The position numbers were made by a program, and so were the translations under genes. A stretch of DNA of 61,194 nt from Mycolicibacterium porcinum (GTDB taxonomy: Bacteria > Actinomycetota > Actinomycetes > Mycobacteriales > Mycobacteriaceae), in the NCBI GenBank assembly GCA_002086835.1, contig MVIG01000032.1:1-61194 (forward strand). Direction: 5' to 3'. Under the pieces are notes generated by a model. It made no database searches. It was not told the origin of the DNA and saw only the letters and a program-made list of their open reading frames with translations. Position 1 is the stretch's first letter; every line of letters begins with the position of its first letter. This document shows, one piece after another, positions 38,502-61,047 of the stretch.

Positions 38502-39104
38502 CTATTGGGCAGGTCGGCGGGGGTGGATGAAGACCCCTTCTGCGCGGACCGTGACGCCGTCCGAGGTGGAGAGGTGGCCGACGGCGAAGGTCTTCACTCC
38601 TTCTATCCGGTCGATGTAGGCCTCGGCGTGAACGGGACCGAGCCGGGTGCCGGCCTCGTAGCGAAGGGTGAGTGTCCCGGTCACTGCGGGCCGTCCCGGC
38701 TTATGTGCGGTGGCACCGAGGACGTGGTCGAGAAGAAGGGCACAGATTCCACCGTGGACATGACCGGCGGGCCCTTCGTAGGCCGCGCCGAGCGTCACAT
38801 CGGCCCAGACTCTCCCGTCGGGGTCGTGGTGGACCACCAATGGGGGTGCCAGGGCGTTGCGCAGCCCGATGACGGCATTTCCCCAGGCGAGGGACTGCCC
38901 GTCGACAGCCTGTTGGACGCCGAATGAACCTGGCATCAACGACTGGCTCAGTTCGTCGGCCGCGGCGTCGATCTTCAGCTTGGCAGAAGCGATGCCGTCG
39001 TGCCCGGCCTGGCTGCGGATGGTCGCATCGACGAGTCGACGAACAGACTCGGTGAGCGACTCGTACAGCGCTTGTGGGACCTGGGTTTCGCTGTGTACAG
39101 ACAA
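38502..39104 (-). CDS. PaaI-family hotdog thioesterase
   Basis: About 200 residues. The hotdog domain has GAAYEGPAGHVHGGICALLLDHVLGAT (the conserved HGG with acid-base residues on the long helix) and TLTLRYEAGTRLGPV. It would release CoA from an aromatic or alicyclic acyl-CoA. I favour TTG 39104, four bases after the flavin-reductase stop and seven bases after GGAG; no ATG or GTG gives the full N-terminal helix VPQALYESLTESVRRLVD. It is coupled to the flavin reductase gene. Confidence 0.8.
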   Translation of the reverse strand: MSVHSETQVPQALYESLTESVRRLVDATIRSQAGHDGIASAKLKIDAAADELSQSLMPGSFGVQQAVDGQSLAWGNAVIGLRNALAPPLVVHHDPDGRVWADVTLGAAYEGPAGHVHGGICALLLDHVLGATAHKPGRPAVTGTLTLRYEAGTRLGPVHAEAYIDRIEGVKTFAVGHLSTSDGVTVRAEGVFIHPRRPAQ

Positions 39105-39108
39105 TCCT

Positions 39109-39645
39109 TCACTCCGCTGTCGGATCGAGTCGCCAGTCGGCGAAGCCACCGTAGTCGCCGCGGTAGAACAGCAGAGGCCGCCCGCCGTGGGTTCCCAGCG
39201 TTGTGACGTGGGCAACCACGATGGTGTGGTCGCCCGCGTCGTGTTCGTATTCGAGGTCGGCTTCGATGGTGGCCAGCGTGTCGTGCAGTCGCGGTGCTCC
39301 GTTCGCCGCCGCGCTCCAGGTGATGCCGGCGAACTTGTCCTCGCTGCTGCGGGCGAATTGCGCACATAGCGCTGCCTGGTGGTCGGCCAGGATGTTGATG
39401 CACATTCGGCCGGTAGCGCGGATCAGCGGCCATGTCGAGGAGGAGCGGGACGGGCAGAACGAGACATAGGGCGGATCCAGCGACACCGAGGTGAGCGATT
39501 GACAGGTGAAGCCGAGCGGTCGCTGCCCATCATGACCGGTGATGACGGCGATACCGGTGCAGAAATGGCCGAGCACGGCACGCATGTCCTGGGGTCCCGG
39601 CCGCGGATGCGTTGGGTGAGCTGTCGCGGCGTACTCGAGGCTCAT
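39109..39645 (-). CDS. Flavin reductase-like FMN-binding protein
   Basis: A 178-residue protein of the HpaC/HsaB group: MRAVLGHFCTGIAVITG, GFTCQSLTSVSLDPPYVSFCPSRSS and CINILADHQAALCAQFA are the conserved flavin-binding segments, and LLFYRGDYGGFADWRL ends the fold. Such reductases supply reduced flavin to a partner oxygenase, such as HsaA in steroid ring cleavage; no two-component flavin oxygenase is visible here. It is divergent from the PadR gene with about 126 bp between. Confidence 0.85.
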   Translation of the reverse strand: MSLEYAATAHPTHPRPGPQDMRAVLGHFCTGIAVITGHDGQRPLGFTCQSLTSVSLDPPYVSFCPSRSSSTWPLIRATGRMCINILADHQAALCAQFARSSEDKFAGITWSAAANGAPRLHDTLATIEADLEYEHDAGDHTIVVAHVTTLGTHGGRPLLFYRGDYGGFADWRLDPTAE

Positions 39646-39711
39646 CGGTCTCCGTCCCTCGTGTGGTCTGTCCACCAAGAGTCGGCCAGACATTCACCGT
39701 GGGGCAACGGT

Positions 39712-39725
39712 GTCTCCCGGTCAGT
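39712..39725 (+). promoter_or_regulatory. GTCTCCCG motif, copy 1
   Basis: GTCTCCCGGTCAGT lies in the divergent space between the flavin reductase and PadR genes. Related sequences occur at 45516, 48661 (minus strand) and 58176, all inside this catabolic island. Confidence 0.4.
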
Positions 39726-39759
39726 GGTTCGGCCGGAGAAGTGTCGTGACCTCGGTTGT

Positions 39760-39774
39760 TACCCTTGCACCATG
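39760..39774 (+). promoter_or_regulatory. Leaderless promoter of the PadR gene
   Basis: TACCCT (39760-39765) fits TANNNT and ends six bases before ATG 39772, and no ribosome site precedes the ATG. This is the same geometry as in front of mutT3. Confidence 0.45.
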
Positions 39775-40446
39775 GAAGAATCCGAGCAGACAGCCACGCC
39801 GGCGCTGGCCGCGAACAGCTGGGCGCTGCTCGGGTTGCTGTCTTATGAGCAGGAACTCTCCGGCTACGACATCCGCAAGTGGCTCCACTGGAGCATGCGC
39901 TATTACTACGGAAGCCCGGCGTACAGCCAGATCTACTCCGATCTGAAGCGGCTGGAAAAGATGGGTTACCTGACCTCGCGGGTGGACGGCACCGGCACGC
40001 GAAACCGGCGTCTCTACAAGATCACCCAGTCCGGACTGGACGCGGTCACCCGGTGGGCGCGGGAGACACCGCCGGACCCGCCCTCGTTGAAGCATCCAGC
40101 GCTCATGCGGGTCACGATGGGCCACCTGAGCGACCCGGCCACGTTGAAGCAGATGCTCCAGGAGCATCTTGCCTACGTCGATGAGATGCAACGCGATGCA
40201 GCCAAAGAGGCCCGGTGGGCCGGGGTCGATCCGTCATGGGCGTACGCCAAGGTCGCGTTGGGCTGGGCGGAGCGTTACTACGCATCGGAGCGGGAACTGA
40301 CCCTGCAGCTGATCAAGGACCTCGACGAGGCCGAGGCCAACTTCCCGAAAGTCGGTGAAGGCGCCAAGATCCCGTGGCCAGACCCGGCGTACTGGTACGA
40401 GATCGAGAGGAAGGCCCACGCCGAGGACATGGAAGGCTCAGACTGA
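39772..40446 (+). CDS. PadR-family transcriptional regulator
   Basis: A 224-residue regulator. The winged helix occupies about residues 15-95: LLGLLSYEQELSGYDIRKWL, SPAYSQIYSDLKRLEKMGYLTS, and the wing with RRLYKITQSGLDAVTRW. A long C-terminal helical dimerisation domain (Vir_act_alpha_C type) follows: LLQEHLAYVDEMQR-like segment and WAERYYASERELTLQLIKDL. It sits between the flavin reductase and KstD-like genes, so likely controls neighbouring steroid genes. Stops 31 bp before the KstD stop, convergent. Confidence 0.87.
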   Translation: MEESEQTATPALAANSWALLGLLSYEQELSGYDIRKWLHWSMRYYYGSPAYSQIYSDLKRLEKMGYLTSRVDGTGTRNRRLYKITQSGLDAVTRWARETPPDPPSLKHPALMRVTMGHLSDPATLKQMLQEHLAYVDEMQRDAAKEARWAGVDPSWAYAKVALGWAERYYASERELTLQLIKDLDEAEANFPKVGEGAKIPWPDPAYWYEIERKAHAEDMEGSD

Positions 40447-40477
40447 CCTTCCGCCCCTTGGTATTTCGGGCCGCGAC

Positions 40478-42181
40478 TCACTCTTCGGCCGCGTCGCGAG
40501 CAGCGATGTAGCCGTACACCAGCCCCTGTGCGATGGTCGCCCCGGCGCCGGGATAGGTGTGCCCGAAGGCGTTGGCGGCCGTGTTGCCGATCGCATACAG
40601 TCCGTGGATGACGGTGCCGTCTTCGCGAAGCACCCTGGCACGGTCGTCGGCGCGTAGACCGCCACACGTACCGAGGTCGCTGAGCACCATCTTCACCGCG
40701 TAGAACGGACCTTTGACGAGTGGCCGCAGGTTCGGGTTCGGCGTGACCGTGGGGTCGCCGTAGTAGCGGTCGTAGGCACTGCGGCCCCGCTCGAAATCGG
40801 GATCCTCTCCAGCGAAGGCATTCTCGTTGAACCGCGTCACCGTCGCCACGAAATCCTCGACCGGAACCTGCATTTTGGTCGCGAGGTCGTCGAAGCTGTC
40901 CGCCTTGACCGCGATTCCGGCGTCGTACCAGGTCTGTGGAATCGGCATCCGTGGAAACAGCTCGGCGGCGAAGACATAGCTGTTGCGGTATTTCTGATCG
41001 AAGACGATCCACATGCTTTCCACCGGCGTACCCGAGGCTTCCAGTTCCAGAACACGTTGCCCGAAGCTCATGTAGTCGGCCGATTCATTGGCGAACCGGT
41101 GGCCGTTGTGGTCGACGATGAACGACCCGGGCAGTGATCGCTCGGCGAGCATCACCGCCGGGGCCGACCCCGGCAGCGGGGCGACCGCGGGGAACCACCA
41201 GGACTGGTCCATCAAGGCGATGTCGGCTCCGGCATCCTGCCCCAACCGGATGGCGTCGCCGGTGTTCGACTCGGCGCCGAGGCTGAGATTGCTTCCGAGA
41301 GATTCGGATTGGAACTTGCGGCGCATGTCCATGTCGTGGTCGAAACCGCCCGCGGCAAGTACGACTCCGCGCCGGGCAGTGACGGCGAGCCGCTTTCCGC
41401 CGTGTTCCACGATGGCTCCGGTGACGCGGTCACCCTCGGTGACCAGTTCGGTCAGCGAGGTGTCGAGCCAGATCGGGATCCCGGCACGAATCGCCCCGGC
41501 GAACAGGCCCGCCGCCAGTGCCTGACCGCCTGCGGCGTAACGCTTCCCGAGGGCCAGACCGCCCAGACCCTGCGCGAGCCGTTTGAGCACCGTGGGCAAT
41601 CCCTTGCGGGGTACTCGACTCATCAGGTTCAGCCACCGGTAATCGGCACCGGTGGTCGGCATCGGAATCTTGACTTCCATGACTCCGGGTCGCAGGTCAG
41701 GAAGGTATTCACCGAGAATCGAGGTGTCGAGCGGCCGGCATTCGCAGGTGCGCCCGGCTGCGGATCCACCGGGAGCCTCGGGGTGGTAGTCGGAGTATTC
41801 CTTGGCCCAGAAAAGCTTCATCGGTGTGGTCCGACGCAACATGTCGACCGTCGCGGGCAGGTTGTCGAGGTACGCGGTGGAGCGCTGCTGAGGTGCCGAG
41901 TCCGCCACGACGGCTTCGAGATACGTGTGCGCTCGCCGCGTCGGGTCGGTCCCACCGCATTCTTCGATCACCTGGCTGGCCGGCAGCCACAACGCACCCC
42001 CCGACCTCGCCGTCGAACCGCCGACATGGGAGGACTTTTCGACGACGAGAACCGACAGGCCCCGCTCGTGTGCGGCCAGAGCGGCGGCGAGTCCGGTACC
42101 GGATCCGACGACGAGAAGGTCTACTTCCGAGTCGGCAACGGTGAGGCCGGCCGGGATCGTCTTGTGGCTGGTGGTGGTCAC
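40478..42181 (-). CDS. 3-ketosteroid-delta1-dehydrogenase-like FAD protein
   Basis: A 567-residue flavoprotein with the KstD layout: FAD motif VVGSGTGLAAALAAHERG (about 24-41), VVEKSSHVGGSTARSGGALWLP, the mid-region ARRGVVLAAGGFDHDMDMR, DRYYGDPTVTPNPNLRP, and TYPGAGATIAQGLVYGYIAA at the end. It would introduce the C1-C2 double bond of a 3-ketosteroid. GTG 42181 gives the usual length, but AGGAGG is 38 bases upstream beside possible TTG/CTG starts, so the N-terminus is unsure. It is divergent from kshA, the classical ring-opening pair. Confidence 0.88.
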   Translation of the reverse strand: MTTTSHKTIPAGLTVADSEVDLLVVGSGTGLAAALAAHERGLSVLVVEKSSHVGGSTARSGGALWLPASQVIEECGGTDPTRRAHTYLEAVVADSAPQQRSTAYLDNLPATVDMLRRTTPMKLFWAKEYSDYHPEAPGGSAAGRTCECRPLDTSILGEYLPDLRPGVMEVKIPMPTTGADYRWLNLMSRVPRKGLPTVLKRLAQGLGGLALGKRYAAGGQALAAGLFAGAIRAGIPIWLDTSLTELVTEGDRVTGAIVEHGGKRLAVTARRGVVLAAGGFDHDMDMRRKFQSESLGSNLSLGAESNTGDAIRLGQDAGADIALMDQSWWFPAVAPLPGSAPAVMLAERSLPGSFIVDHNGHRFANESADYMSFGQRVLELEASGTPVESMWIVFDQKYRNSYVFAAELFPRMPIPQTWYDAGIAVKADSFDDLATKMQVPVEDFVATVTRFNENAFAGEDPDFERGRSAYDRYYGDPTVTPNPNLRPLVKGPFYAVKMVLSDLGTCGGLRADDRARVLREDGTVIHGLYAIGNTAANAFGHTYPGAGATIAQGLVYGYIAARDAAEE

Positions 42182-42283: not shown

Positions 42284-43429
42284 ATGACGACGCACCCAGA
42301 TACCGATGACATTCGGTTGATCGAGGCCGGTTCGGTACCAACCAGGTTCGCCCGCGGCTGGCACTGCCTGGGGTTGATCCGCGATTTCGGTGATGGAAAG
42401 CCGCATCAGATCAACGCGTTCGGGCAGAAGCTGGTGGTGTTCCGCAGCGAGGACGGGGCAATCAACGTGCTCGACGGGTATTGCCGGCACATGGGCGGCG
42501 ACTTGTCGCAAGGGACGGTTAAAGGCAACGAGATCGCCTGTCCTTTCCACGATTGGCGCTGGGGCGGTGATGGTCGCTGCAAATCGGTGCCGTACAGCAA
42601 GCGCACCCCGCGATTGGCCCGTACCGCTTCCTGGCCCACTCTGCAGCAGGACGGAATGCTCTTCGTCTGGAACGATCCCGAGCGCAAGGCCCCGCCCGCC
42701 GACGTGACCATTCCGCACATCGAGGGGGCCACCAGCGATCAGTGGACCGATTGGCACTGGTACACAACCGTCGTCAACACCAACTGCCGCGAGATCATCG
42801 ACAACGTCGTGGACATGGCGCACTTCTTCTACATCCACGGATCGCTTCCCACCCACTTCAAGAACATCTTCGAAGGCCATGTCGCGACCCAGTACATGAA
42901 GAGCGGCGGCCGGCCCGACATCGGCGACCCCGAAGGGGCCAAGTTGCTCGGCACCACCTCATTGGCGTCCTACCACGGACCCTCGTTCATGATCGATGAT
43001 CTGACCTACCACTACCAGGAGTTCGACCAGCGCACGGTGCTGATCAACTGCCACTACCCGATCGACGCCAATTCGTTTGTGCTGCAGTACGGCATCGTGG
43101 TGGAAAAGAACGCAGCCATGCCGGAGGAGCTCGCCATGGAGACGGCTGTCGCTCTCGGCGAGTTCGTCAAGATGGGATTCGAGCAAGATGTCGAGATCTG
43201 GCGTAACAAGACCCGGATCGACAACCCGCTGCTTGTGGAGGAGGACGGACCGGTCTACCAACTGAGGCGCTGGTATGAGCAGTTCTATGTCGACGCGGCC
43301 GACGTCACTCCGGACATGGTGGACCGCTTCGAATTCGAGCTGGACACAACCAGGCCGTACGAGGCCTGGATGAGGGAAGTGGAAGCCAATCTCGCTGCCC
43401 GCGCTGCTACTTCCGGGCCGGTGGGGTGA
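42284..43429 (+). CDS. kshA: 3-ketosteroid-9-alpha-hydroxylase oxygenase subunit (KshA-like Rieske oxygenase)
   Basis: A 381-residue Rieske oxygenase. The [2Fe-2S] ligands are CRHMGGDLSQG and CPFHDWRWGG (C-x-H...C-x2-H, about 68-92), and the mononuclear iron site is NVVDMAHFFYIHG (about 183-195), as in KshA of mycobacteria and Rhodococcus. With KstD it opens ring B of steroids. No KshB reductase is present in the window, so electrons must come from one encoded elsewhere. ATG 42284 has GGGG just upstream. It is followed by a small CxxC protein. Confidence 0.92.
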   Translation: MTTHPDTDDIRLIEAGSVPTRFARGWHCLGLIRDFGDGKPHQINAFGQKLVVFRSEDGAINVLDGYCRHMGGDLSQGTVKGNEIACPFHDWRWGGDGRCKSVPYSKRTPRLARTASWPTLQQDGMLFVWNDPERKAPPADVTIPHIEGATSDQWTDWHWYTTVVNTNCREIIDNVVDMAHFFYIHGSLPTHFKNIFEGHVATQYMKSGGRPDIGDPEGAKLLGTTSLASYHGPSFMIDDLTYHYQEFDQRTVLINCHYPIDANSFVLQYGIVVEKNAAMPEELAMETAVALGEFVKMGFEQDVEIWRNKTRIDNPLLVEEDGPVYQLRRWYEQFYVDAADVTPDMVDRFEFELDTTRPYEAWMREVEANLAARAATSGPVG

Positions 43430-43710
43430 GGATGGCTGTCCGGCCGGACAACCGCCTCGACGATGCGCCGATGGCGCCGGTGACGTGCGCACGATGCGGC
43501 GCCGGCGTCGAGGTGCGCAAGAGCAGTTGGAGCCAGACCAGCGTCCAGTGGACCGGCGCTGCCCTGGATCGTTGTGAAGAGCGTTGCACTGCAGCGCGAT
43601 TGGCCGGTACCGGTGTCCGCGGCCTGTTCCTGACCTGCTCGACCCTGGGCGGGTCCATCGTGGACGCGGTGCGTTCGGGAGCGCTGCAGGTGGTCGACGA
43701 GACCTCGTGA
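43426..43710 (+). CDS. Small CxxC protein of the kshA operon, unknown function
   Basis: A 94-residue hypothetical protein overlapping kshA by four bases (GTGA); ATG 43432 is an alternative start. It has a rubredoxin-like CARCG (about 21-25) and later cysteines in DRCEERC and FLTCSTL, so it may bind metal, perhaps zinc, but no second CxxC is properly spaced. I do not recognise a named family. Its fixed position behind the oxygenase suggests an accessory role such as electron transfer or assembly; this is inference only. Confidence 0.65.
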   Translation: MRMAVRPDNRLDDAPMAPVTCARCGAGVEVRKSSWSQTSVQWTGAALDRCEERCTAARLAGTGVRGLFLTCSTLGGSIVDAVRSGALQVVDETS

Positions 43711-43728
43711 ACTTCCGAATCCGTCCGG

Positions 43729-44295
43729 CTACCGCTTCAGCAGGCCGACGGTACGGGTGAGCCGTTCTGACAGCTCCGCCGCGGCGATGCGCCGCTGAGC
43801 GAATGCGGCGACATTGGACATCCAGACGTCAGACAGTATTTCGGCGGCGCCGATCTCCCGGGTGGGCGATTCACCTTCTGACGCGGAACCGACGAAGATT
43901 CGGACCACCTGCTGTCGCACCCGCTCCGCCTGGGTCGCGGCGGTGCCGTCGGCGTAGAGATAGGGGCGGATCATGGCCTCGGCAAACAGCGACGATGAGC
44001 ACAGCCGGTCGGTGAGGGTCAGGGCAACCCGCAGCAGTCGCCGAAACGGATCCGGCTCATCGGTGACGCAGACATACTCCGTCTCGAAATCCCACAGCCA
44101 TTCGTAGAAGCACGCGAGCAGCAGCTCATCCTTCGACGGGAAGTATTGGTACACAGTGCCGGCCGACACACCCGCCGCAGCGGTGACTGAACGGATCTGG
44201 CAGGCGTCATAGCCCAGGACGGCCAGCTCTGTCGCACAGGCGATGATCCGATCACGCCGTTCCCCGCGCCGAGCCTGGATTCTCGTTGTCCGCAT
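43729..44295 (-). CDS. TetR-family regulator (KstR-like)
   Basis: A 188-residue regulator. The N-terminal HTH is RRDRIIACATELAVLGYDA followed by QIRSVTAAAGVSAGTVYQYFPSKDELL (about 10-60). The rest recalls KstR: LTDRLCSSSLFAEAMIRPYLYAD and ILSDVWMSNVAAFAQRR, motifs of the ligand-binding helices in the steroid regulator KstR (LTEAMTRAYVFAD, VISDVWLSNLLAW). It may sense a steroid-CoA. ATG 44295 follows a TCTCCCGTCCAG-like site on its own strand. It converges with the small CxxC gene. Confidence 0.87.
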   Translation of the reverse strand: MRTTRIQARRGERRDRIIACATELAVLGYDACQIRSVTAAAGVSAGTVYQYFPSKDELLLACFYEWLWDFETEYVCVTDEPDPFRRLLRVALTLTDRLCSSSLFAEAMIRPYLYADGTAATQAERVRQQVVRIFVGSASEGESPTREIGAAEILSDVWMSNVAAFAQRRIAAAELSERLTRTVGLLKR

Positions 44296-44471: not shown

Positions 44472-45401
44472 CTACGTGGATGACACGGGCATGATCGGAA
44501 TCTTCTTCATCGCGCTGGCACGAGGATCTGGTGCGGCCGCTGCGGCCGCGTGGTTCTCTTCTCCTCTGGTGTAGGTCCACACGCAGAAGGGCTCGCCTTC
44601 GGCGAATTTGAAGTCTTTGGGCGGCAGGTTGATGGCAAGCTTGCAGCCCGGGAAGAAGGGTGCCGAAATACGTTGCTCGAAGGTGCAGTTCATCCATGCG
44701 CGGGCAGGTGGGTAAAGGCCTTCATCGGTGTATTTCTGGAGCACCTCGCAGCGGCGCATATTCAAGACCACGTGATCGGGGTTGTACACGATGTACTCGC
44801 CGCCGTAGCCCAGGGTCCCATCGATACTCAGCACCGCCAGCTTGAGGAAATCCACGACGTGGACGGGCTCGATCTTGAAGACCTTCGCCAGCTTCGGGTA
44901 CTGGTAGTCGATGATGAGCTGGTACATGTCGGGTAGCCCGAGCCAGACCTCTTCCTCAGGGATGATCTTCGTCCACTGGTCGATGAAGTAGTTGTGGCCC
45001 TTGAGGTACTGATCCCAATAGGTCTTGATCAGGCGGATCAATGCCGGCTTTGTGAGGTCTTCGGTCTGCACGTCGAACGGGATGGCTTGGTACTGGGCGT
45101 TCTTCCAGTCCCAACCGGGAGGCGCGATGAACCGTCCCATCGGCATCACCTGCCGCATGCCGGCCCGGGAGACCTCGGCGGCAATGTCCATGGCCGCGTT
45201 GATGCCGACCTTCTGCGAGTAGATCTGGACGTGGGCGTAGGGGACGAAGTTCAGGACGTCTTCGAACACCTTGGCCAAGCCGAGAAGAAAATCGCGCGAG
45301 AAGTCTTGGATATTGCCGACTTTGCCCATGAAGTCGTGGGTGTAGTCGTCGTAGTTGAGTTCCTCGCCTTCAGCGGTGAGGTCTTCGGTGTCCGTTGCCA
45401 T
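44472..45401 (-). CDS. Conserved protein of unknown function
   Basis: A 309-residue protein that I do not recognise. It opens with an acidic tail (DTEDLTAEGEELNYDDYTHD) and a helical part (DFLLGLAKVFEDVLNFVPYAH). It continues with a region rich in Trp and Tyr (PPGWDWKNAQYQ; TYWDQYLKGHNYFIDQW). Four scattered cysteines include MNCTF and FPGCKL. No signal peptide or membrane helix is seen. Strong AGGAGG lies before ATG 45401. It is single, divergent from a TetR gene, with tandem TGGCAGA palindromes in its promoter, so its expression is probably inducer-dependent within the steroid island. Confidence 0.75.
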   Translation of the reverse strand: MATDTEDLTAEGEELNYDDYTHDFMGKVGNIQDFSRDFLLGLAKVFEDVLNFVPYAHVQIYSQKVGINAAMDIAAEVSRAGMRQVMPMGRFIAPPGWDWKNAQYQAIPFDVQTEDLTKPALIRLIKTYWDQYLKGHNYFIDQWTKIIPEEEVWLGLPDMYQLIIDYQYPKLAKVFKIEPVHVVDFLKLAVLSIDGTLGYGGEYIVYNPDHVVLNMRRCEVLQKYTDEGLYPPARAWMNCTFEQRISAPFFPGCKLAINLPPKDFKFAEGEPFCVWTYTRGEENHAAAAAAPDPRASAMKKIPIMPVSST

Positions 45402-45473: not shown

Positions 45474-45515
45474 ACTCAACGAATGGTAAGCAGCGCGAGA
45501 CGTAGGTCACGGGTT

Positions 45516-45535
45516 GTCTCCCGGTGACCGGGAGA
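45516..45535. promoter_or_regulatory. GTCTCCCG motif, copy 2 (19-bp palindrome)
   Basis: TCTCCCGGT-G-ACCGGGAGA (45517-45535) is a perfect palindrome in the same divergent region, nearer to the TetR gene. It is the most symmetric of the four related sites in the island. Confidence 0.6.
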
Positions 45536-45613: not shown

Positions 45614-46228
45614 ATGCAGGTGGCGCACAAGCCGACCTCGCTGACCGAGCGGCGCGCCGAGGACCTTCGGTTCGAAATCGCAGTGGCCGCTCGCGATCTG
45701 TTCCTTGCCGAGGGTTCGACTTCGGTCACCGTAGAGCGGATCTGTACCGCCGCGGGTATTGCGCCGCGCACCTTTCACCGCCATTTTCCGGTGAAAGAGG
45801 ACGTCGTGTTGCCGCTGTTTCGCCGGTTCGGCACCCTGAGCGTCGAGGTGCTTGCGGACGCCGGTCCAGGCGGTGATGTCGTCGACATCCTTGTCGAAGC
45901 GTTCAGCACCGAGGTACCGAAACGCGGCACCGTCGAATTCGACCGCACGTTCATGGCATTGGTGGTCAACGATCCCCAGTACCGGCTGCGCTGGCTGGAT
46001 TGGGGGCAGGACCTCATCGGCCCGATTGCCGAGTTCCTGGGTGCCAGGTTTGATCTCGGCAACAACCCGCATACGCGAGAACTGCCGGCACAGCTGGTGA
46101 TTCAGGTGTGCCGGCACGCGTACTTGCGCTGGGTTGCCGACGGTGACTTCGCCGGCCTGCGCTCCGCTCTGCGAGTCGGGATGCAGATGGTGGTGGAAGC
46201 CCTGCCGGTGGTGTCGCGGCAGGGCTGA
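45614..46228 (+). CDS. TetR-family regulator
   Basis: A 204-residue regulator. The HTH domain is at about residues 18-65: RFEIAVAARDLFLAEGSTSVTVERICTAAGIAPRTFHRHFPVKEDVV; TFHRHF is the recognition-helix core. The rest is a helical ligand domain with no further recognisable signature. Its divergent position opposite the 309-residue protein, with two kinds of palindrome between, makes it the likely repressor of that promoter and of itself. It converges with a SnoaL-like gene. Confidence 0.88.
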   Translation: MQVAHKPTSLTERRAEDLRFEIAVAARDLFLAEGSTSVTVERICTAAGIAPRTFHRHFPVKEDVVLPLFRRFGTLSVEVLADAGPGGDVVDILVEAFSTEVPKRGTVEFDRTFMALVVNDPQYRLRWLDWGQDLIGPIAEFLGARFDLGNNPHTRELPAQLVIQVCRHAYLRWVADGDFAGLRSALRVGMQMVVEALPVVSRQG

Positions 46229-46254: not shown

Positions 46255-46674
46255 CTAGTTGCCGAAGATCTCCAGTGCCCCGACGTACGCCCGGTTGGCC
46301 TTGATTCGTTCGGCGATCCGCCACCGCCCGTCGACGTCCCGTCGCCAGGTGTCGTGGTAGTCGCCGAGCGTGTAGAAGCGCGTCGAGGGGTCGCCGGCTG
46401 AATTCAGATGAACGTCGCGGATGTAGGCCTTGCTCGTGGCGGTGTCGTCGACGACGTCGATGACAATGTTGCCCAGCAGATGCTGGGTGGGCCCGCAGTT
46501 GTCGAGGAAACCGCGAATCATGTCGATGATCGCGGCGGCTCCCACCAAGCGTCCGGTTCCGAAATCGCCTTCCGCTTCCGGAAGGAGGATCTCGGACATC
46601 GTCGCCCAGTCTCTGGCGTCCATGGCTCGGGCGAAGAGATTCAGCGCCCGTTCGATGTCCCGCTCATCGCGCAT
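46255..46674 (-). CDS. SnoaL-like/NTF2-fold protein
   Basis: A 139-residue cone-fold protein: RDIERALNLFARAMDARDWATMSEIL, then AAAIIDMIRGFLDNCGPTQHLLGN, and a C-terminal WRIAERIKANRAY. SnoaL_4-type proteins include steroid isomerases, dehydratases and aldol-type lyases of steroid side chains. The histidine in TQHLLGN is typical of the SnoaL_4 group. It is the last gene of the long minus-strand run, 44 bp after the SDR; ATG 46674 or GTG 46677 may be used. Confidence 0.82.
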   Translation of the reverse strand: MRDERDIERALNLFARAMDARDWATMSEILLPEAEGDFGTGRLVGAAAIIDMIRGFLDNCGPTQHLLGNIVIDVVDDTATSKAYIRDVHLNSAGDPSTRFYTLGDYHDTWRRDVDGRWRIAERIKANRAYVGALEIFGN

Positions 46675-52098: not shown

Positions 52099-53201
52099 CG
52101 CATGCCCAATCCCCGCGCGATGACACCGCGCAGCACTTCGTTGGTTCCGCCGCGCAACGTGAAGCCGGGGCGCTGATCCATGGCGGTGGCCACCAGATCG
52201 GTCCATCGTGGGTCCGGAAGGGTGTCGTCTCCGGTTCGCTGGTCGGCGAATTCGGCGATGTCACCCTCGACGGTGGTGCCGAGCACCTTCACGACCGCCG
52301 CGGGTACGTCGGGATTCTCGCCGCGTTGCAGCGCGTCGGCCACCGCGGTCGACATGTGATGCAGGGCGGCGATACGCGCGACCAACCGGCCGAGACCCGG
52401 TTCGGGCGAATCGTTCTCGCAGGCCGGGTGATCGACGTATCCCGCGAGCAGTGGAAACGTCGACAGGAATCGTTCCGGGCCACTGCGCTCGAAGCCCAGC
52501 TCGGAGGTCACCTGGGTCCAACCGTTGCCGATCTCGCCGAAGACCATGGCGTCGGGGACGAACACCTCGTCGAGTACGACCTCGTTGAAATGGTGGCCGC
52601 CGTTCATCGAGACGATGGGCCGGACGTCGACGCCGGGTGAGCGGAGGTCGACGATGAACTGGCTCAGCCCGGTGTGCCGGTGCGCGGGATCCATCGGTTC
52701 GCTGCGGGCCAGCACGATGAACGCGTGGGCGCGGTGCGCCCCCGAGGTCCACACCTTGGTGCCGGTGATCGACCAGCCGCCGTCGACCCGTACGGCGCGG
52801 GTCCGAACGCTCGCGAGGTCGGAGCCCGAATCCGGCTCGCTCATCCCGATTCCGAAGAAGCACTCCCCACGCACGATGCGGGGCAGGAACTCCGACTTCT
52901 GTGCCTCGGTGCCGTACTTCAGCAGCGAGGGCACGATCTGCCGGTCGGCGATCCAGTGGGCGGCTACCGGTGCGCCCGCGGCCAGCAGTTCCTCGGTGAC
53001 GACGAAGCGCTCACGGAAGGAGCGGCCATGCCCGCCGTAGTGCACCGGAACGGTCATGCCGAGCCACCCACGTCCGGCCAGTGCCGCGGTGAAGTTCTCA
53101 TCCCAGCCGCACAGCCAGGCATCCACCGACGGCGTGAACGCACCTGAAGCCATTTGCTCGCAGAGGAATTCGCGTACCTCCCCGCGAAGCGACGCCGTCA
53201 T
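52095..53201 (-). CDS. Acyl-CoA dehydrogenase, larger subunit type
   Basis: A 368-residue ACAD. The middle domain is clear: CFFGIGMSEPDSGSDLASVRTRA and WSITGTKVWTSGAHRAHAF, followed by ERSGPERFLSTFPLL, and the C-terminal LRGGTNEVLRGVIARGLGMR with the conserved TNEV loop. It presumably supplies most FAD contacts in a heteromer with the next gene's product. Start 53201 forms ATGA with the hydratase stop; ATG 53213 is an alternative with four more residues. Confidence 0.88.
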   Translation of the reverse strand: MTASLRGEVREFLCEQMASGAFTPSVDAWLCGWDENFTAALAGRGWLGMTVPVHYGGHGRSFRERFVVTEELLAAGAPVAAHWIADRQIVPSLLKYGTEAQKSEFLPRIVRGECFFGIGMSEPDSGSDLASVRTRAVRVDGGWSITGTKVWTSGAHRAHAFIVLARSEPMDPAHRHTGLSQFIVDLRSPGVDVRPIVSMNGGHHFNEVVLDEVFVPDAMVFGEIGNGWTQVTSELGFERSGPERFLSTFPLLAGYVDHPACENDSPEPGLGRLVARIAALHHMSTAVADALQRGENPDVPAAVVKVLGTTVEGDIAEFADQRTGDDTLPDPRWTDLVATAMDQRPGFTLRGGTNEVLRGVIARGLGMR

Positions 53202-53974
53202 GACGTCCGCCATTTCGAGATGCGCTGCTCGTGCTCGGTGTCGTGATGCGCCAGCGGCTGCATCGCCGCCGCCATCGACAGCGTGGACTCCAGCGTCCCG
53301 GTGGTCGATTCCTGAAGCAGTCGCTTGGCCATCCGCAGCGCATGTGGCGGGTTGACGGCGATCCGGTCCGCGAGTGTGCGGGCCTCGGACAACAGCGCAT
53401 CGTGGGGTACCACTCTGCTGACGAGTCCCCACTCCAGGGCAGTGGTCGCATCGATGCGCTCGCCGGTGAACGTCAGCTCGGCGGCGCGGGCATACCCGAT
53501 GGCGCGGGGCAGGAACCACGTTCCACCGTCTCCCGGGATGAGCCCGAGTTGAACGAAGCTCTCGGCGAAAGACGCACGTTCGGAGGCGATCCGGATGTCG
53601 CACATCATGGCGAGGTCACAGCCGGCGCCGATGGCCGCCCCGTTGACCGCGGCGATGAGCGGCACCTCGAGGCGACCCAGCGCACGCGGGATTCGCTGGA
53701 TGCCGTCGATGTAGGCCCGGCGCTGGTCGATGGCATCCAGTCCGAACATTCCCTGGCGGTCGGCCATCTCCTTGACGTTGCCGCCGGCCGAGAAGATCTT
53801 GCCGGCACCGGTGAGGACGACCGCGCGGATCGTGTTGTCCCGGTTGGCCGTATCTACACCCGATTCGAACGCCTCGATGACGTCTGTGCCGGTGATGGCG
53901 TTACCGACGTCGGGCAGATCGATCGTCCAGACCTGGACCGATCCGTCGGTGTGGATGTCCAGCGGTGCACTCAC
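53198..53974 (-). CDS. Enoyl-CoA hydratase/isomerase family protein
   Basis: A 258-residue crotonase-fold protein. The two oxyanion-forming segments are IFSAGGNVKEM and NGAAIGAGCDLAMMCDIRIAS. By eye, the position of the first catalytic glutamate of crotonase is not acidic (in AESFVQLGLIPGDGG), while the second glutamate, in RAAELTFTG, is kept. That and the aspartate in PGDGG make an isomerase or other crotonase reaction as likely as hydration. GTG 53974 overlaps the aldehyde dehydrogenase stop. Confidence 0.86.
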   Translation of the reverse strand: MSAPLDIHTDGSVQVWTIDLPDVGNAITGTDVIEAFESGVDTANRDNTIRAVVLTGAGKIFSAGGNVKEMADRQGMFGLDAIDQRRAYIDGIQRIPRALGRLEVPLIAAVNGAAIGAGCDLAMMCDIRIASERASFAESFVQLGLIPGDGGTWFLPRAIGYARAAELTFTGERIDATTALEWGLVSRVVPHDALLSEARTLADRIAVNPPHALRMAKRLLQESTTGTLESTLSMAAAMQPLAHHDTEHEQRISKWRTS

Positions 53975-56537: not shown

Positions 56538-56547
56538 AGTGATCCCT

Positions 56548-58152
56548 TCAGTTGCTGGTGAATTCGAGGCCGAACCGCTCGCGAAGGTCGCGTTTGAGCA
56601 GTTTGCCGCTGGGGTTCTTCGGCAGCGATTCGACGAAGAACACCTGTTTGGGGGTCTTGAAGCCGGCGAGATGCTCGTGGCAGTGACGCAGGATGTCCTC
56701 TTCGGTGAGGGTGGCTCCGGCCCGGGCCACCACCGCCGCGACCACTGCCTCCACCCAGACCGGGTGCGCGACCCCGAACACGGCGACTTCCTCGATGCCG
56801 TTGTGCCGGTACAGGACTTCTTCGACCTCGCGGCTTGCGACGTTCTCGCCGCCGGTCTTGATCATGTCCTTCTTGCGATCCACCACGTGCAGCAGGCCGT
56901 GGTCGTCGTAGAAGCCCAGATCGCCGGAATGGAACCAGCCGCCGGCGAAGGCCTGCGCGGTCTTGTCTTCATCGTCGAGGTAGCCCAGCATCAAATGCGG
57001 GCTGCGATGGGCGATTTCACCGACCGTGCCGGCCTCGACCGGAACATCGTTGTCGTCGAGGATGACGGTTTCGACATTGACGACGGGCCGGCCCGCGGCC
57101 CCGGCGTGAGTATCCTGCTCATCGGGTCCCAGGGCTGAGGCCAGCGGGGCCATCTCGGTCTGGCCGTAGAAGTTCCAGAGCCGGAGGTTGGGCAGCCGTC
57201 GGCGCATCTCGTGCAGAACCTCGGTCGGCATCGGTGATGCGCCGTAATACCCCTTGCGCAGGCTTGACAGGTTCACTTCGTCGAACACCGGGCTCCGCAG
57301 CAGGCTGATCCATACGGTCGGCGGGGCAAAGTAATTGGTGACGACGTAGCGCTCGATGGTGCGCAGGACCAATTCCGGCTCGGGCCGTGGGACGATGATG
57401 CTGGTTGCGCCCAGGTAGATGTCCGTGGCGAGGAAGTTGTCCAATTGCGCGCAGTGATACAGCGGCAGTGAATGGATTTCCACGTCGTCGCCGGACATGG
57501 AGCCGGCCACGATGGTGCTGATGTACTGCCACATCAAGCTTCGGCTGCTGTGCATGACGCCCTTGGGCCGCGATTCGGTGCCGCTGGTGTACATCACGCG
57601 GAGCAGTTGATCGTCGTCGATCCGGCAATCCGGAACATCGGCGGTGGTGGCGAGCCAATCCGCGAAATCTGTCCAGCCCGAGGGGCTGGATCGGCCGGCG
57701 GGGACGATCGCTGCCTTGGTGCGGACCGCTGTCCCGGTGGTCAGGGCCTGTTCGGCCACCGGCACGAGGTCACTCTCGACGATGAATCCCGCGGCCCGGC
57801 TGTGCCCGAGGATGTAGGAGATCTCTTCCGGCTTCAGCATGAAGTTGATCGGCACCAGCACCACCCCGGCGCGGGCAGTGGCGAACGCCAATACCGCGTA
57901 CTGCCAGCAGTTGCGCGACAGCAGTGCGACCCGGTCGCCGGGAAGGAGCCCGTCCTCGTGCAACGCGGCAGCGGCACGATCCACCAGGCGATCGAATTCG
58001 GCGAAGCTCAGGACTACGTCGCCGTCGATGATGGCCGCCTTGTCCGGTTGCCTGCGCGCCGACCGGCGGGGGATGTCGGCGAGGCTGTGGCTGCGGGCCC
58101 GGGCGATGACCGCGGCCAGGTCGTCGGAATGCATGATCGGCAGGGTAGGCAT
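56548..58152 (-). CDS. Acyl-CoA synthetase (FadD-like, AMP-forming)
   Basis: A 534-residue ANL-superfamily ligase. The P-loop is VMYTSGTESRPKGVMHS (about 170), then WNFYGQTEMAPL (about 325), GWFHSGDLGFYDD, DRKKDMIKTGGENVASREVEEV, and the terminal catalytic lysine in NPSGKLLKRDLR. It would activate a side-chain or ring carboxylate as CoA thioester. Two starts are possible (58152 and 58134). It is the first gene of the 12-gene minus-strand run and divergent from the Baeyer-Villiger monooxygenase. Confidence 0.92.
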   Translation of the reverse strand: MPTLPIMHSDDLAAVIARARSHSLADIPRRSARRQPDKAAIIDGDVVLSFAEFDRLVDRAAAALHEDGLLPGDRVALLSRNCWQYAVLAFATARAGVVLVPINFMLKPEEISYILGHSRAAGFIVESDLVPVAEQALTTGTAVRTKAAIVPAGRSSPSGWTDFADWLATTADVPDCRIDDDQLLRVMYTSGTESRPKGVMHSSRSLMWQYISTIVAGSMSGDDVEIHSLPLYHCAQLDNFLATDIYLGATSIIVPRPEPELVLRTIERYVVTNYFAPPTVWISLLRSPVFDEVNLSSLRKGYYGASPMPTEVLHEMRRRLPNLRLWNFYGQTEMAPLASALGPDEQDTHAGAAGRPVVNVETVILDDNDVPVEAGTVGEIAHRSPHLMLGYLDDEDKTAQAFAGGWFHSGDLGFYDDHGLLHVVDRKKDMIKTGGENVASREVEEVLYRHNGIEEVAVFGVAHPVWVEAVVAAVVARAGATLTEEDILRHCHEHLAGFKTPKQVFFVESLPKNPSGKLLKRDLRERFGLEFTSN

Positions 58153-58175
58153 GTGGCCGACGGCTGCGGTGGTTC

Positions 58176-58192
58176 GTCTCCCGCTCAGTAGA
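58176..58192 (+). promoter_or_regulatory. GTCTCCCG motif, copy 4
   Basis: GTCTCCCGCTCAGTAGA sits in the 85-bp divergent promoter between the acyl-CoA synthetase and the Baeyer-Villiger monooxygenase genes. It matches copy 1 at 13 of the first 14 bases. Confidence 0.45.
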
Positions 58193-58221
58193 CAGGACAG
58201 GCGCGGTCAGGGCCCAAGCCC

Positions 58222-58234
58222 TTCGATACTCGAA
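58222..58234. promoter_or_regulatory. Palindrome TTCGA-TAC-TCGAA before the monooxygenase
   Basis: A perfect 13-bp inverted repeat ending four bases before ATG 58238. Its position over the initiation region would suit a repressor site, but it is short and no cognate regulator can be named. Confidence 0.3.
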
Positions 58235-58237
58235 TCC

Positions 58238-60163
58238 ATGACCGCTACCACTGAATCCTCGTCACTCGCGGATCGTGCCCCAGACCCAGATGTCCTGCGC
58301 GCCCATCTCCTGGAGGCGGACCCCGGTGTTCTGGTCGCGGTGTTGGCTCAGATGACCGGCGACGCATCGGTTGTCGACCGGTATGCAGCCAAGATCGATC
58401 ACGTGCCCGACCCGCCCGAGCGGGCCGGATCGACCGACCCTCAGACCGCCGAGGCACTGGCCGATGAGATCATCGCCGCGTTGGGCCGACCACGCCGTGA
58501 CGATGCGATTGCGGCCGACGACCGTGCTTTCTTCGCCGGCCTGCTGCCGATCGCGCTGGGCGGCCCGGTCGACGACGAACAGGTCGATCTGCTGTTGGAG
58601 CAGGGCGGTTTCCGCCCGTCTCAGCCCACCTTGCCGCGCACCACGCCGATTCCCCAGACCACGACCGTGGCCATCATCGGTGCCGGCATCGCCGGTCTGG
58701 CCGTGGCGCTGGCGGCAGCCGAGGAAGGCGTGCAGTTCCAGATCTTCGACCGCAACGAGGAGGTTGGCGGCACCTGGCTGACCACCACCTATCCCGGCAT
58801 CGGCGTCGACACGCCCTCGGCGTACTACTCGTTGTCGCGTGAGGTGAATCCGGATTGGTCGAACTACTATCCGCAGGGCGCGGAATACCAGGCGTATCTG
58901 GTTTCGTTGGCCGACAAACACGATCTGCGTCGCCACATCCGGTTCGGCACCGAGGTCGAGGCCTTGTGGTGGGACGAAGCGCGACGGCAATGGCAGATCC
59001 ACTCGCGCACTGCCGACGGTACCCAGGACGTCGACTACGCCAGCGTTGTGGTTACCGCTGCCGGCTATCTGAACCGACCCAGATTCCCCGAGATCGATGG
59101 ACGAGACAGCTTTGCGGGCACCAGTATTCACTCAGCCCAATGGGATCCGGAACTGAATCTTGCGGGCAAGAGGGTCGCGGTGATCGGCGCCGGTTGCACG
59201 GCGGTGCAGATCGTCGATGCCTGTGTCGACGAGGTTGAGCACCTGACGGTGTTCCAACGCCAGCCGCACTGGGTGGCGCCGCGCAAGCGGCTGTCCGACG
59301 AGGTTCCCGAACACCGTCGCTACCTGGGACGGGTGCTGCCCTACTACGCGATGTGGCACCGGCTCAAGTCGTACTGGGGTACCGCCGACAACAACTACCC
59401 GATCATCCTGCAGGACCCCGAGTGGTCCAAGACGCACCTGTCGATCTCGCCGACCAACGACGTGCTGCTGCAGCTGTGCCTGGATTACATCGACCGGATG
59501 TTCGGCGCCGGAAGCGAACTGGCGAAGAAGGTCACTCCGGATTTCGCGCCGTACGGCAAGCGGATCATCCGCGATCCCGGCGGCTACTACGCGGCGCTCA
59601 CCCGCGAACATGTCGACGTCGAAGCCAGTGAACCCGCGGCGATCAACGAGCACGGCATCGTCACGGCCGACGGCAGGCAGATCGATCTCGACGTGATCAT
59701 CTACGCGACCGGTTACCACCTGGATTTCCTGTCCACGGTCGACATCCGGGGGCGTGACGGCAAGACCCTGGCCCAGGAATGGGGTGACAGCCCGCGCGCA
59801 TACCGCGGCGGCACGGTGCCGGGCTTCCCGAACCTCTTCATCACCTCGGCACCGAACTACAGCCCCGGACATGGTGCGGGCGCCAACTTCTCGATGGAGG
59901 TGCTGGCGCACTACATCGTGGAGTGCCTGCAGCTGATGGCGTTGCGCGGCGCATCGACGATGGAAGTCACCCAATCCGCGTTCCAGGATTACGTCGACGG
60001 GATCGACGAGACGATGCAGGGCACCGTCTGGTGTCACACCCCGAATGCCCACACCTATTACCGGTCGGGTTCCGGACGTGTTGTGGTGGCCACGCCGTAC
60101 CGCCTGGTGGACCTGTGGCACCAGCACCGTGCCCCGATCGAAGAGGATTTCATTCTCCGATGA
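58238..60163 (+). CDS. Baeyer-Villiger monooxygenase (HAPMO-like, with N-terminal extension)
   Basis: A 641-residue class B flavin monooxygenase. After an extension of about 130 residues the FAD motif IIGAGIAGLAVALAAAEEG appears, then the BVMO fingerprint FAGTSIHSAQW (FxGxxxHxxxW) at about 290, the NADPH fold VIGAGCTAVQIVDA, and the IYATGYHLD motif. Length and extension match 4-hydroxyacetophenone monooxygenase. It would insert oxygen next to a ketone, for example a side-chain or ring ketone of a steroid or terpenoid. Its stop overlaps the next gene in ATGA. Confidence 0.92.
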   Translation: MTATTESSSLADRAPDPDVLRAHLLEADPGVLVAVLAQMTGDASVVDRYAAKIDHVPDPPERAGSTDPQTAEALADEIIAALGRPRRDDAIAADDRAFFAGLLPIALGGPVDDEQVDLLLEQGGFRPSQPTLPRTTPIPQTTTVAIIGAGIAGLAVALAAAEEGVQFQIFDRNEEVGGTWLTTTYPGIGVDTPSAYYSLSREVNPDWSNYYPQGAEYQAYLVSLADKHDLRRHIRFGTEVEALWWDEARRQWQIHSRTADGTQDVDYASVVVTAAGYLNRPRFPEIDGRDSFAGTSIHSAQWDPELNLAGKRVAVIGAGCTAVQIVDACVDEVEHLTVFQRQPHWVAPRKRLSDEVPEHRRYLGRVLPYYAMWHRLKSYWGTADNNYPIILQDPEWSKTHLSISPTNDVLLQLCLDYIDRMFGAGSELAKKVTPDFAPYGKRIIRDPGGYYAALTREHVDVEASEPAAINEHGIVTADGRQIDLDVIIYATGYHLDFLSTVDIRGRDGKTLAQEWGDSPRAYRGGTVPGFPNLFITSAPNYSPGHGAGANFSMEVLAHYIVECLQLMALRGASTMEVTQSAFQDYVDGIDETMQGTVWCHTPNAHTYYRSGSGRVVVATPYRLVDLWHQHRAPIEEDFILR

Positions 60164-61047
60164 GCCAGATACTGGCAGGCAGGACGGTATTGGTCACCGG
60201 CAGCAGCCGAGGTATCGGGCGTGCCATCGCACAACGACTGGCGGCGGAAGGCGCGACGGTTGCGGTGACCGCCCGCGCCTACGTCCCGACTCCGTCCACC
60301 CGGGCCGGGGTCACCGAGGCGATCCCCGGGACGATCGAGGAGACCATCGCCCTCATCGAAGCCGCCGGGGGATCTGCCTTCGGGTTGGCCGCCGATCTAG
60401 AGGACAGTGCAGCGCGGGACAGCCTGATCGATGCCGTCGTCGAGCACACGGGCCGGCTGGACATTCTGGTCAACAACGCCGGCTACGCCGACTATTCGGT
60501 CGTCGAAGAGATGCCGGTCGAGACGTTCGACCGCACCGTTGAGCATTACCTCAAGACGCCGTTCGCGTTGACGAAAGCCGCTGTGCCGCACATGCGTGCC
60601 CAGGGAGCGGGGTGGATCGTCAACATCGGATCGGTGACCGGTGTGGCCCCGGTGCGGCCTTACCGGGACTACAACAAGACTGCGGGCGACGTGATCTACG
60701 CATCGTGTAAGGCGGCACTGCACCGGTTCACCCAAGGTGTCGCGGCTGAGCTGCTCGACGCCAACATCGCGGTGAACTGCGTCGGTCCGTCGACGGCGGT
60801 GCGCACGCCCGGGGCGGCGTCGCTGATTCCGGATACGTTTCCGACCGAACCCGTTGAGTACCTTGCCGAAACAGTGCTCGCGATGTGTCACCTGCCCGCT
60901 GCCGACCGGACGGGGCTGGTGGCGTTCAGCCTGCACTACCCGTGGTCACAACAACTTCCGGTGCACTCGCTGGACGGCGGCACGGTCCTGCCGCCACTGC
61001 AGCCGCCGGCGGCGTCGAATCCGAACATCCTGCCCGCGGGAGTCTGA
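60160..61047 (+). CDS. Short-chain dehydrogenase/reductase
   Basis: A 295-residue SDR coupled to the monooxygenase: VLVTGSSRGIGRAIAQRLA (about 9-27), VTARAY after the second strand (favouring NADP(H)), ILVNNAGYADYS, serine in NIGSVTGVAP and YASCK (about 187-191). A prolonged C-terminal end (LHYPWSQQLPVHSLDGG) is unlike most classical SDRs. It may supply the ketone substrate of the monooxygenase or reduce its product; context only. Confidence 0.87.
   Translation: MSQILAGRTVLVTGSSRGIGRAIAQRLAAEGATVAVTARAYVPTPSTRAGVTEAIPGTIEETIALIEAAGGSAFGLAADLEDSAARDSLIDAVVEHTGRLDILVNNAGYADYSVVEEMPVETFDRTVEHYLKTPFALTKAAVPHMRAQGAGWIVNIGSVTGVAPVRPYRDYNKTAGDVIYASCKAALHRFTQGVAAELLDANIAVNCVGPSTAVRTPGAASLIPDTFPTEPVEYLAETVLAMCHLPAADRTGLVAFSLHYPWSQQLPVHSLDGGTVLPPLQPPAASNPNILPAGV

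Follow-up and report, generated by a model that had tools for sequence, protein, structure and literature searches.

The 61,194-nucleotide stretch of Mycolicibacterium porcinum DNA analysed here, which is the entire contig C29 of assembly GCA_002086835.1 and is called the window below, carries a cluster of steroid-degradation genes at its right end. We put at roughly 0.8 the probability that the window holds the left half of a single large locus for steroid degradation, of the C-19+ or cryptic-steroid-nucleus-degradation (CSND) kind, whose right half stands where contig C26 of this genome ends. Compared with the published C-19+ / CSND cluster the locus is a variant, and its new parts are a candidate oxygenase family, represented by the protein U358, and a promoter shared by genes on both contigs. 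We report the gene content, the single-locus synteny in relatives, the conserved promoter layout, and the predicted fold of U358, and we propose reactions, substrates, and an order of steps that the whole locus may follow.

A steroid locus probably broken between two contigs

The last gene of the cluster, for the SDR-family protein SDR3, stops 147 bases short of the contig end at 61194, which falls inside a DUF222-HNH repeat, and position 61047 is thus no true right edge. The terminus of C26 carries the C-terminal DUF222 part together with HNH (Pfam match), and because the ends of both contigs fit one DUF222-HNH repeat, the assembly appears to have been broken between them. That C29 and C26 adjoin in the M. 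porcinum genome would follow from synteny in its relatives rather than from sequence across the gap. A sequence-only reading of the window had described a self-contained island that ends at 61047 and lacks HsaA-D; the first claim does not survive the break in the repeat, since the locus very probably continues on C26, and the second is an effect of the same break, as HsaA-, HsaC-, and HsaD-like genes lie on C26.

We fetched the surroundings of U358 from seven same-genus relatives (G003, G188, and five single-contig ones), using thresholds of 40% identity and 30% coverage, and in six of the seven the window-type and C26-type genes are contiguous over about 25-40 kb, excluding mce genes. Past SDR3 on the 5.97-Mb contig of G003, the order is a 328-residue protein, an OYE-type reductase, a second HSL esterase, an IclR protein, and a KstD-like FAD protein, followed by an extradiol dioxygenase, an HsaA-like oxygenase, and a reductase. 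The same set recurs reversed at the end of C26, where the 328-residue protein has a Dabb domain. All six contiguous relatives carry KstD, KshA, a small open reading frame (ORF), PadR, U358, HSL, SDR2, SnoaL2, the Baeyer-Villiger monooxygenase (BVMO), and SDR3 of the window type, along with the 328-residue gene, HSL2, IclR2, the KstD-like protein, HsaC2, and HsaA2 of the C26 type; two regulators, PadR and IclR2, are thus found in all six. In the seventh relative, G188, the fetched span stops at the KstD-like gene, short of HsaA2, and an insertion separates SDR3 from a shortened 328-residue gene. Across a wider sample, SDR3 and the C26-type 328-residue gene lie within about 2 kb of each other in 35 loci.

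The locus varies in its outer parts. BVMO2 is present in four of the six relatives (the fetched G003 span ends before HsaD2 and BVMO2), HsaA2, HsaC2, and BVMO2 each occur twice in the G449 locus, and the module of alcohol dehydrogenase (ADH), aldehyde dehydrogenase (ALDH), enoyl-CoA hydratase (ECH), and acyl-CoA dehydrogenase (ACAD) is only partly present in G258 and G430 and wholly missing in G449. Contiguous but smaller versions without U358 occur in G348, G300, G434, and G310, and a collapsed form in G400 and G403 keeps only mce-HsaA2-IclR2-PadR, beside genes that flank the window cluster on its left. Some kshA clusters are of another kind. As far as the fetched spans reach, neither KstD nor second-set Hsa genes adjoin KshA in G374 and G436; in G502, KshA is accompanied by a KstD520-type gene and mce genes, while U358 and the second-set Hsa genes are lacking.

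On C26, NCBIfam models recover an HsaA-like protein (367 bits, cut-off 450), an HsaC-like protein (367, cut-off 450), and an HsaD-like protein (272, cut-off 400). The contig also holds a PaaE/KshB-type reductase (KshB2), BVMO2, a LipP1 esterase that scores over its cut-off, and an LLM-class protein of the F420 type. Genes that we labelled by eye as mce lie beside the locus on C26 and in G003, G258, G382, G430, G449, and G500.

Gene content of the window

Genes were re-called, and their proteins were scanned against Pfam and NCBIfam and some against PDB sequences; KstD, KshA, and most other window proteins score far above the curated cut-offs, so these are not chance matches. For comparison we used the best 80 of 151 U358 relatives, a choice that favours the U358-bearing form, and the locus counts below are over the 67 full-length loci, within 10-kb flanks around U358 and at set identity thresholds.

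38502..39104, minus: 4HBT-type thioesterase; PF03061, 27.6 bits, over the cut-off in a longer reading of the same frame; 45/67 loci
39109..39585, minus: HsaB-like flavin reductase; NF045630, 188 bits, under the cut-off of 230; 12/67
39772..40446, plus: PadR-family regulator; Pfam PadR, 36.7 bits; 64/67; at E<=1e-40 in 163/248 same-genus genomes
40478..42181, minus: KstD, 3-ketosteroid delta1-dehydrogenase, most likely of KstD2 type; NF009479, 1074 bits, cut-off 793; 66/67
42284..43429, plus: KshA, Rieske 9alpha-hydroxylase oxygenase; KshA_C, 302 bits; PDB KshA entries, 527-612 bits, the best being 4qdf (612); Rieske CxH...CxxH; 65/67
43432..43710, plus: small ORF (92 aa) after KshA; no Pfam match; 65/67
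43729..44295, minus: TetR regulator, KstR-like; NF033703, 118 bits, under the cut-off of 280; 7/67
44472..45401, minus: U309, protein without a family; no Pfam or NCBIfam match; 20/67
45614..46228, plus: TetR2, TetR regulator; Pfam TetR_N
46255..46674, minus: SnoaL/NTF2-like protein; weak NCBIfam match only, 19 bits, under cut-off
46719..47501, minus: SDR1; Pfam adh_short, 171 bits
47518..48594, minus: U358, candidate Fe(II)/2-oxoglutarate oxygenase of an unnamed family
48581..49555, minus: HSL-type esterase; Pfam Abhydrolase_3, 222 bits; HGGG and GDSAG motifs; 66/67
49623..50486, minus: SDR2; NCBIfam SDR matches, best 189 bits, under cut-offs; 66/67
50483..50971, minus: SnoaL-like protein (SnoaL2); SnoaL_4, 19.7 bits, under cut-off; 67/67
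51037..52098, minus: acyl-CoA dehydrogenase, small partner, adjoining the large one as a candidate heteromeric (alpha2beta2) pair of steroid catabolism; C-terminal ACAD domain only; 50 bits with the IpdE2 model, far below the cut-off of 450; ACADs in 41/67
52095..53213, minus: acyl-CoA dehydrogenase, large partner; Pfam N, M, and C domains
53198..53974, minus: enoyl-CoA hydratase; ECH_1, 188 bits
53971..55404, minus: aldehyde dehydrogenase; Aldedh, 497 bits
55431..56537, minus: zinc alcohol dehydrogenase; ADH_zinc_N, 104 bits; 34/67
56548..58152, minus: acyl-CoA ligase; NF006182, 803 bits, cut-off 663; 50/67
58238..60163, plus: type I BVMO with an N-terminal extension, FMO-like; PDB BVMOs, <=193 bits; fingerprint FxGxxxHxxxW[PD] present as FAGTSIHSAQWD at 292, Rossmann motif at 148; 34/67, a count limited by the 10-kb flank
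60190..61047, plus: SDR3; adh_short, 138 bits
61118..61194, plus: probable start of the DUF222-HNH repeat gene, running to the contig end; by eye, 24 residues without a Pfam match

The enzymes that the sequence-only reading had named (KstD, KshA, BVMO, HSL esterase, ligase, paired ACADs, ECH, ADH, and ALDH) were all recovered by gene calls and families, as were its three regulators (PadR at 39772, TetR at 43729 and 45614). Its four SDR/SnoaL helpers fared less evenly: the SDRs exist, and there are three (46719, 49623, and 60190), whereas the two SnoaL-like proteins (46255 and 50483) have matches under cut-off only. It passed over the thioesterase at 38502, the HsaB-like reductase at 39109, the small ORF at 43432, and the family-less proteins at 44472-45401 and 47518-48594. 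The comparative genomics of the gene set that it had called for shows that the core order recurs, with variation, in the 80 related loci. Protein distances of seven core genes agree across 65 loci (r 0.44-0.83, reached in 0/200 permutations for each of the 21 pairs), and of these seven U358 evolves most slowly, with a mean distance of 0.141 (versus 0.169 for KshA and 0.234 for KstD). The nearest named U358 loci are those of [Mycobacterium] fortunisiensis, M. houstonense, M. setense, Mycobacterium sp. NS-7484, and M. peregrinum, which probably places the genome in the M. fortuitum group.

Relation to the C-19+ and CSND clusters

Seven genes are described as critical to C-19+ (kstD2, kstD3, kshA2, kshB2, hsaA2, hsaC2, and hsaD2; PMC6351609). 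The G430 locus has homologous types of all seven and the M. porcinum genome has six on C29 and C26; the kstD3-type gene lies on C1, outside the locus, where in G430 and G449 it lies inside, and so we call the M. porcinum cluster a variant rather than a strict C-19+ member. Three other features of the C-19+ / CSND kind are found: a kstD2-type gene stands beside kshA outside the cholesterol locus, a second set of hsaA-, hsaC-, hsaD-, and kshB-like genes belongs to the same locus (on C26, joined by synteny in relatives), and an mce operon, identified by eye, adjoins it. The C-19+ cluster of M. smegmatis (MSMEG_2851-2901; gene numbers and lengths in PMC5270728, PMC4881515, and PMC6351609) has the same traits, namely kstD beside kshA, a second kshB/hsaA/hsaC/hsaD, and adjoining mce genes, all apart from the cholesterol locus, but in M. 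porcinum the kstD3 type sits elsewhere on the chromosome. The CSND cluster of M. neoaurum, reported as highly conserved across Mycolicibacteria, has kshA2 close to both kstD2 and kstD3 (PMC10398937, PMC5960168), and it differs from the present locus in that same gene. For M. fortuitum ATCC 35855, five KstDs are reported, spread over four loci, and kshA accompanies two of them (PMC10018825).

The M. porcinum genome likewise has five strong KstDs at four places (C22, the window, two on C24, and C1), with kshA adjoining KstD on C29 and C1. The two close KstD genes at C24:1725-9335 are likely the KstD4/KstD5 pair of M. fortuitum. The KstD on C1 is of the type of PDB entry 4c3x (444 bits), which we take to be R. 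erythropolis KstD1, and is 36% identical to the window KstD and 69% to KstD520 of relative G003. In M. neoaurum, KstD3 is described as resembling R. ruber KstD1 and KstD2 as resembling Rhodococcus KstD2 enzymes (PMC5960168), and these likenesses, taken with the type of the C1 gene, make the window KstD most likely a KstD2. By alignment to 4c3x it keeps positions Y119/Y318/Y487/G491, numbered as in PMC10018825 with a tag offset of 20 that we worked out by hand.

The window KstD is most likely orthologous to M. fortuitum KstD2, which is reported to act on androstenedione (AD), 9-OHAD, and C22 3-ketosteroids, to be the most active of the five KstDs (262-2104 mU/mg on four substrates), and to have its transcript raised 5.74-fold by AD (PMC10018825). 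These activities of the probable orthologue give a first lead on the substrate, which the sequence-only reading had left unassigned. The same reading had set the cluster apart from the cholesterol locus, and this stands: the window does not hold the canonical cholesterol KstR/KstD/KshA set, which sits on C32 (KstR, 341 bits, over cut-off), C22 (KstD, 982 bits, over cut-off), and probably C48. The C48 KshA is likely the canonical one, lying beside CYP142-like, Ltp-like, and Rv3529c-3531c-like genes (labels by size and eye), and HsaA fragments, likely canonical, lie at the contig ends of C32, C22, and C17.

A shared operator and promoter

In M. smegmatis the PadR-type gene MSMEG_2868 regulates the C-19+ cluster. 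In M. porcinum, PadR, U309, U358, and BVMO in the window and KshB2 on C26 are each preceded by a -10 box with a common operator 45-46 bp upstream of it. The window sites are as follows.

39715..39765, plus: PadR promoter; operator TCCCGGTCAGTGGT, 31 nt, -10 TACCCT
45483..45535, minus: U309 promoter; palindrome TCTCCCGGTGACCGGGAGA (45517-45535), -10 TACCAT at 31 nt
48624..48674, minus: U358 promoter, inside the 3' end of the esterase gene; TCCCGATCACCGGA, 31 nt, CACAAT
58179..58230, plus: BVMO promoter; TCCCGCTCAGTAGA, 32 nt, GATACT; weak operator, 10.3 bits

A shared-word search over 17 intergenic stretches gave one 8-mer in five of them, which is weak alone given all the 8-mers tried, and the case for the promoter is made by conservation and fixed spacing in relatives instead. 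TCCCGG[CT]CAGCGGT lies upstream of PadR in 68/69 scored loci, a count given by construction because the training set of the first matrix was the PadR upstream regions; the seed distance of the PadR operator is 0-4 in 69/71 loci, against 3-6 for controls. Before U358 the operator scores at least 10 bits in 54/80 loci, compared with 1.8% of random windows, and in an alignment of 26 loci it stays conserved amid diverged surroundings. The -10 hexamer (CACAAT for U358, TAaCCT for PadR) starts 31 nt past the operator, and this spacing holds in 51 of the 52 loci (of 80) that match the U358 promoter pattern; the PadR -10 box likewise starts at the same offset in 35 loci. Enrichment of the operator before KstD and KshA is modest, at 13/78 and 14/77 loci with at least 10 bits over the same 1.8% background.

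A scan of all 6.96 Mb of the genome with the composite of operator and ACAAT gives three matches, one each upstream of U358 and of KshB2 (C26) and a third on C22, and the reversed control has none. The C22 match (C22:53620-53669) lies about 15 kb from the canonical KstD and may be due to chance or may mark a link to the cholesterol locus. For a looser -10 the scan matrix was averaged over PadR and U358 sites, so those matches arise by construction, unlike the ones at KshB2, BVMO, U309, and the mce side. With it, the window has matches before PadR, U309, U358, and BVMO and one without a gene, and C26 has matches before KshB2 and an mce-side gene and two without a gene; window positions 1-36000 have none. 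An operator-like site between KshB and HsaA did not recur as a composite match. Among the six relatives, the composite precedes PadR in 6/6, U358 in 5/6, KshB2 in 3/6, and BVMO in 2/6. As the composite promoter occurs on both C29 and C26, it ties the two contigs into one regulon and provides a second line of evidence that they belong together.

U358, a candidate oxygenase

U358 (358 aa) has a family that occurs in 128/248 same-genus genomes. The protein is highly conserved, and relatives that carry its gene nearly always have the enzymes for steroid ring opening next to it (KstD in 66 and KshA in 65 of the 67 full-length loci). It has no match in Pfam, NCBIfam, or PDB sequences, and a PDB profile search with the family gave chance-level matches only. 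Its predicted fold has the double-stranded beta-helix, and H140, D142, and H222, a putative HxD...H metal triad, are invariant in 12 sequences down to 27% identity, which suggests that U358 is probably an Fe(II)/2-oxoglutarate oxygenase. R272 and R223, also invariant in these sequences, are candidates for 2-oxoglutarate binding, with unusual spacing. SnoN (5ep9) and phytanoyl-CoA hydroxylase (2a1x) are 10% and 7% identical to U358, which differs from both in having no Pfam family and in lying in a steroid locus. Distant U358 relatives in another family have MMPL-transporter-like genes nearby, so the protein family extends beyond steroid loci.

U358 belongs to the extended form of the locus and has a promoter to itself, similar in type to those of KshB2, PadR, and BVMO. 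We tentatively propose that it acts on steroids and supplies a step that distinguishes this locus from the cholesterol pathway, for example hydroxylation of an incoming steroid in ring C/D or in the C18/C19 methyl region, although we hold this a little less probable than its being wrong. A review of bacterial steroid hydroxylases compares three classes, cytochrome P450, Rieske, and molybdenum (PMC6153880), and the class proposed for U358 is not among them. If U358 does act on steroids, bacterial steroid catabolism would gain a further class of oxygenase, and with it perhaps a hydroxylation at a new specific site.

The model itself gives grounds for caution. Its catalytic stretches have pLDDT <50, five models range from 67.7 to 42.1, and Foldseek gives weak matches, a single one of them at E<=0.001 (best TM 0.28, rmsd 14.7). 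These values at the putative metal site and in Foldseek, together with the missing sequence family and a 2-oxoglutarate arginine that is not at its usual distance from the second histidine, would also suit a catalytically dead beta-helix protein that binds or senses, or a misassigned fold; we consider this unlikely. Orthology of U358 to Rv3531c was rejected: the likely counterparts of Rv3529c-Rv3531c, identified by gene size, are on C48, and the gene at 2243-3370 of the stretch L110 has no BLAST match to U358. As far as we searched, the U358 family and the operator are new, with no family model and no mention met, U358 and U309 having no gene name to search under.

Proposed working of the locus and alternative explanations

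The locus might work as follows. 3-Ketosteroids would be imported by way of the adjoining mce genes; KstD would oxidise C1-C2 and KshA, with the KshB-like reductase, C9, whereupon ring B would open. The HsaA-like oxygenase (with the HsaB-like reductase), the HsaC-like extradiol dioxygenase, and the HsaD-like hydrolase would then open and remove ring A. The two BVMO-esterase pairs and the ADH-ALDH-ligase-ACAD-ECH module may prepare steroids with a short C17 substituent or process a C17 ketone, and U358 would add an Fe(II)/2-oxoglutarate-dependent oxidation. The common operator, at its fixed distance from the -10 box, would drive PadR, U309, U358, BVMO, and KshB2.

Several points, besides the displaced kstD3-type gene, weigh against this reading of the locus. 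The C26 Hsa-like scores are under the NCBIfam cut-offs, so their substrates may differ from cholesterol intermediates, and the HsaC-like protein passes the biphenyl-diol dioxygenase model (383 bits, cut-off 366). HsaD2 is found in 4/6 relatives and KshB2 in 3/6 (the promoter scan labels KshB2 in a fourth). Orthology to MSMEG_2851-2901 is argued by analogy, from gene order, counts, and lengths, and neither phytosterol nor any C19 steroid is reported to activate the C-19+ genes of M. smegmatis (PMC10672877), while AD induces kstD2 in M. fortuitum. As to the promoter, 28/80 loci fail the U358 promoter pattern, 8 of the 39 composite matches in the six relatives have no downstream gene start, and G500 has no composite match before U358.

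The alternative that fares best is a dedicated C21 (progesterone-type) or C22 route, in which BVMO makes a 17-acetate from a 20-ketosteroid; the acetate would be cleaved by HSL and the 17-hydroxyl oxidised by an SDR before the ring enzymes complete the breakdown. The full locus does hold two BVMO-HSL pairs, one in the window and one on C26, and the window BVMO has a weak promoter of the shared type. Bacterial enzymes that make testosterone acetate exist, among them a BVMO and a luciferase-like one (PMC12239570). The pdc progesterone cluster of Caenibius tardaugens offers a comparison, as C26 for its part carries an LLM-class protein and BVMO2, although the pdc cluster is described as small and has other neighbours (PMC12239570). 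However, the smaller loci show BVMO2 and not the window BVMO, which is about equally like cyclohexanone (192 bits), steroid (188), and phenylacetone (166) monooxygenases, and formation of a D-ring lactone from a 17-ketone is an equally good reading of it. We therefore regard a dedicated C21/C22 route as possible but doubtful.

The sequence-only reading had favoured a side pathway that trims only a side chain or D-ring substituent and passes its product to the cholesterol-type central pathway. The window by itself, without HsaA, HsaC, and HsaD, would fit this, as would the cholesterol-type set elsewhere in the genome and the resemblance of the BVMO-esterase and ADH-ALDH-ligase-ACAD-ECH modules to peripheral steps. 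The C26 half, however, carries HsaA-, HsaC-, HsaD-, and KshB-like genes, and the six relatives carry them too in varying completeness (HsaA- and HsaC-like in all). With these genes in the locus, rings A and B could in principle be opened by the locus itself, and the side pathway becomes improbable. Least probable is a pathway for non-steroid polycyclics (di- or triterpenoids) with borrowed KstD- and KshA-like enzymes: the C26 Hsa-like enzymes are divergent and one passes the biphenyl-diol cut-off, but KstD keeps its four active-site residues, KshA closely matches solved steroid 9alpha-hydroxylases (527-612 bits), and the probable KstD orthologue is reported to act on 3-ketosteroids (PMC10018825).

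A locus of the C-19+ / CSND kind thus remains our preferred reading. Such loci add to the loss of steroid product in industrial mycobacteria; in a producer strain of M. neoaurum, 9-OHAD is reported to have risen by 26.7% once the CSND cluster was deleted (PMC10398937). Targets for reducing such loss, and for finding the natural steroid to which the locus owes its evolution, are given by the fuller gene list, the shared promoter, and the candidate oxygenase family.

Other genes and loci

U309 is 88-96% identical in 16 relatives and occurs in only 3/296 genomes of the class. Its PDB matches are at chance level only, its structure model has a pLDDT of 48.7, and its promoter, of the shared type, carries a perfect 19-bp palindrome.

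A further M. porcinum cluster, at C81:225000-244999, has HsaA-like proteins, a BVMO, an HSL esterase, a ligase, and SDRs; this stretch has no composite promoter match, though it has operator-like intergenic sites of 13.2 and 11.0 bits. To the left of the steroid cluster, the window holds a PknG-type protein kinase with rubredoxin and TPR domains (8496-10772) and two adjacent M28-family peptidase genes (20762-23700).

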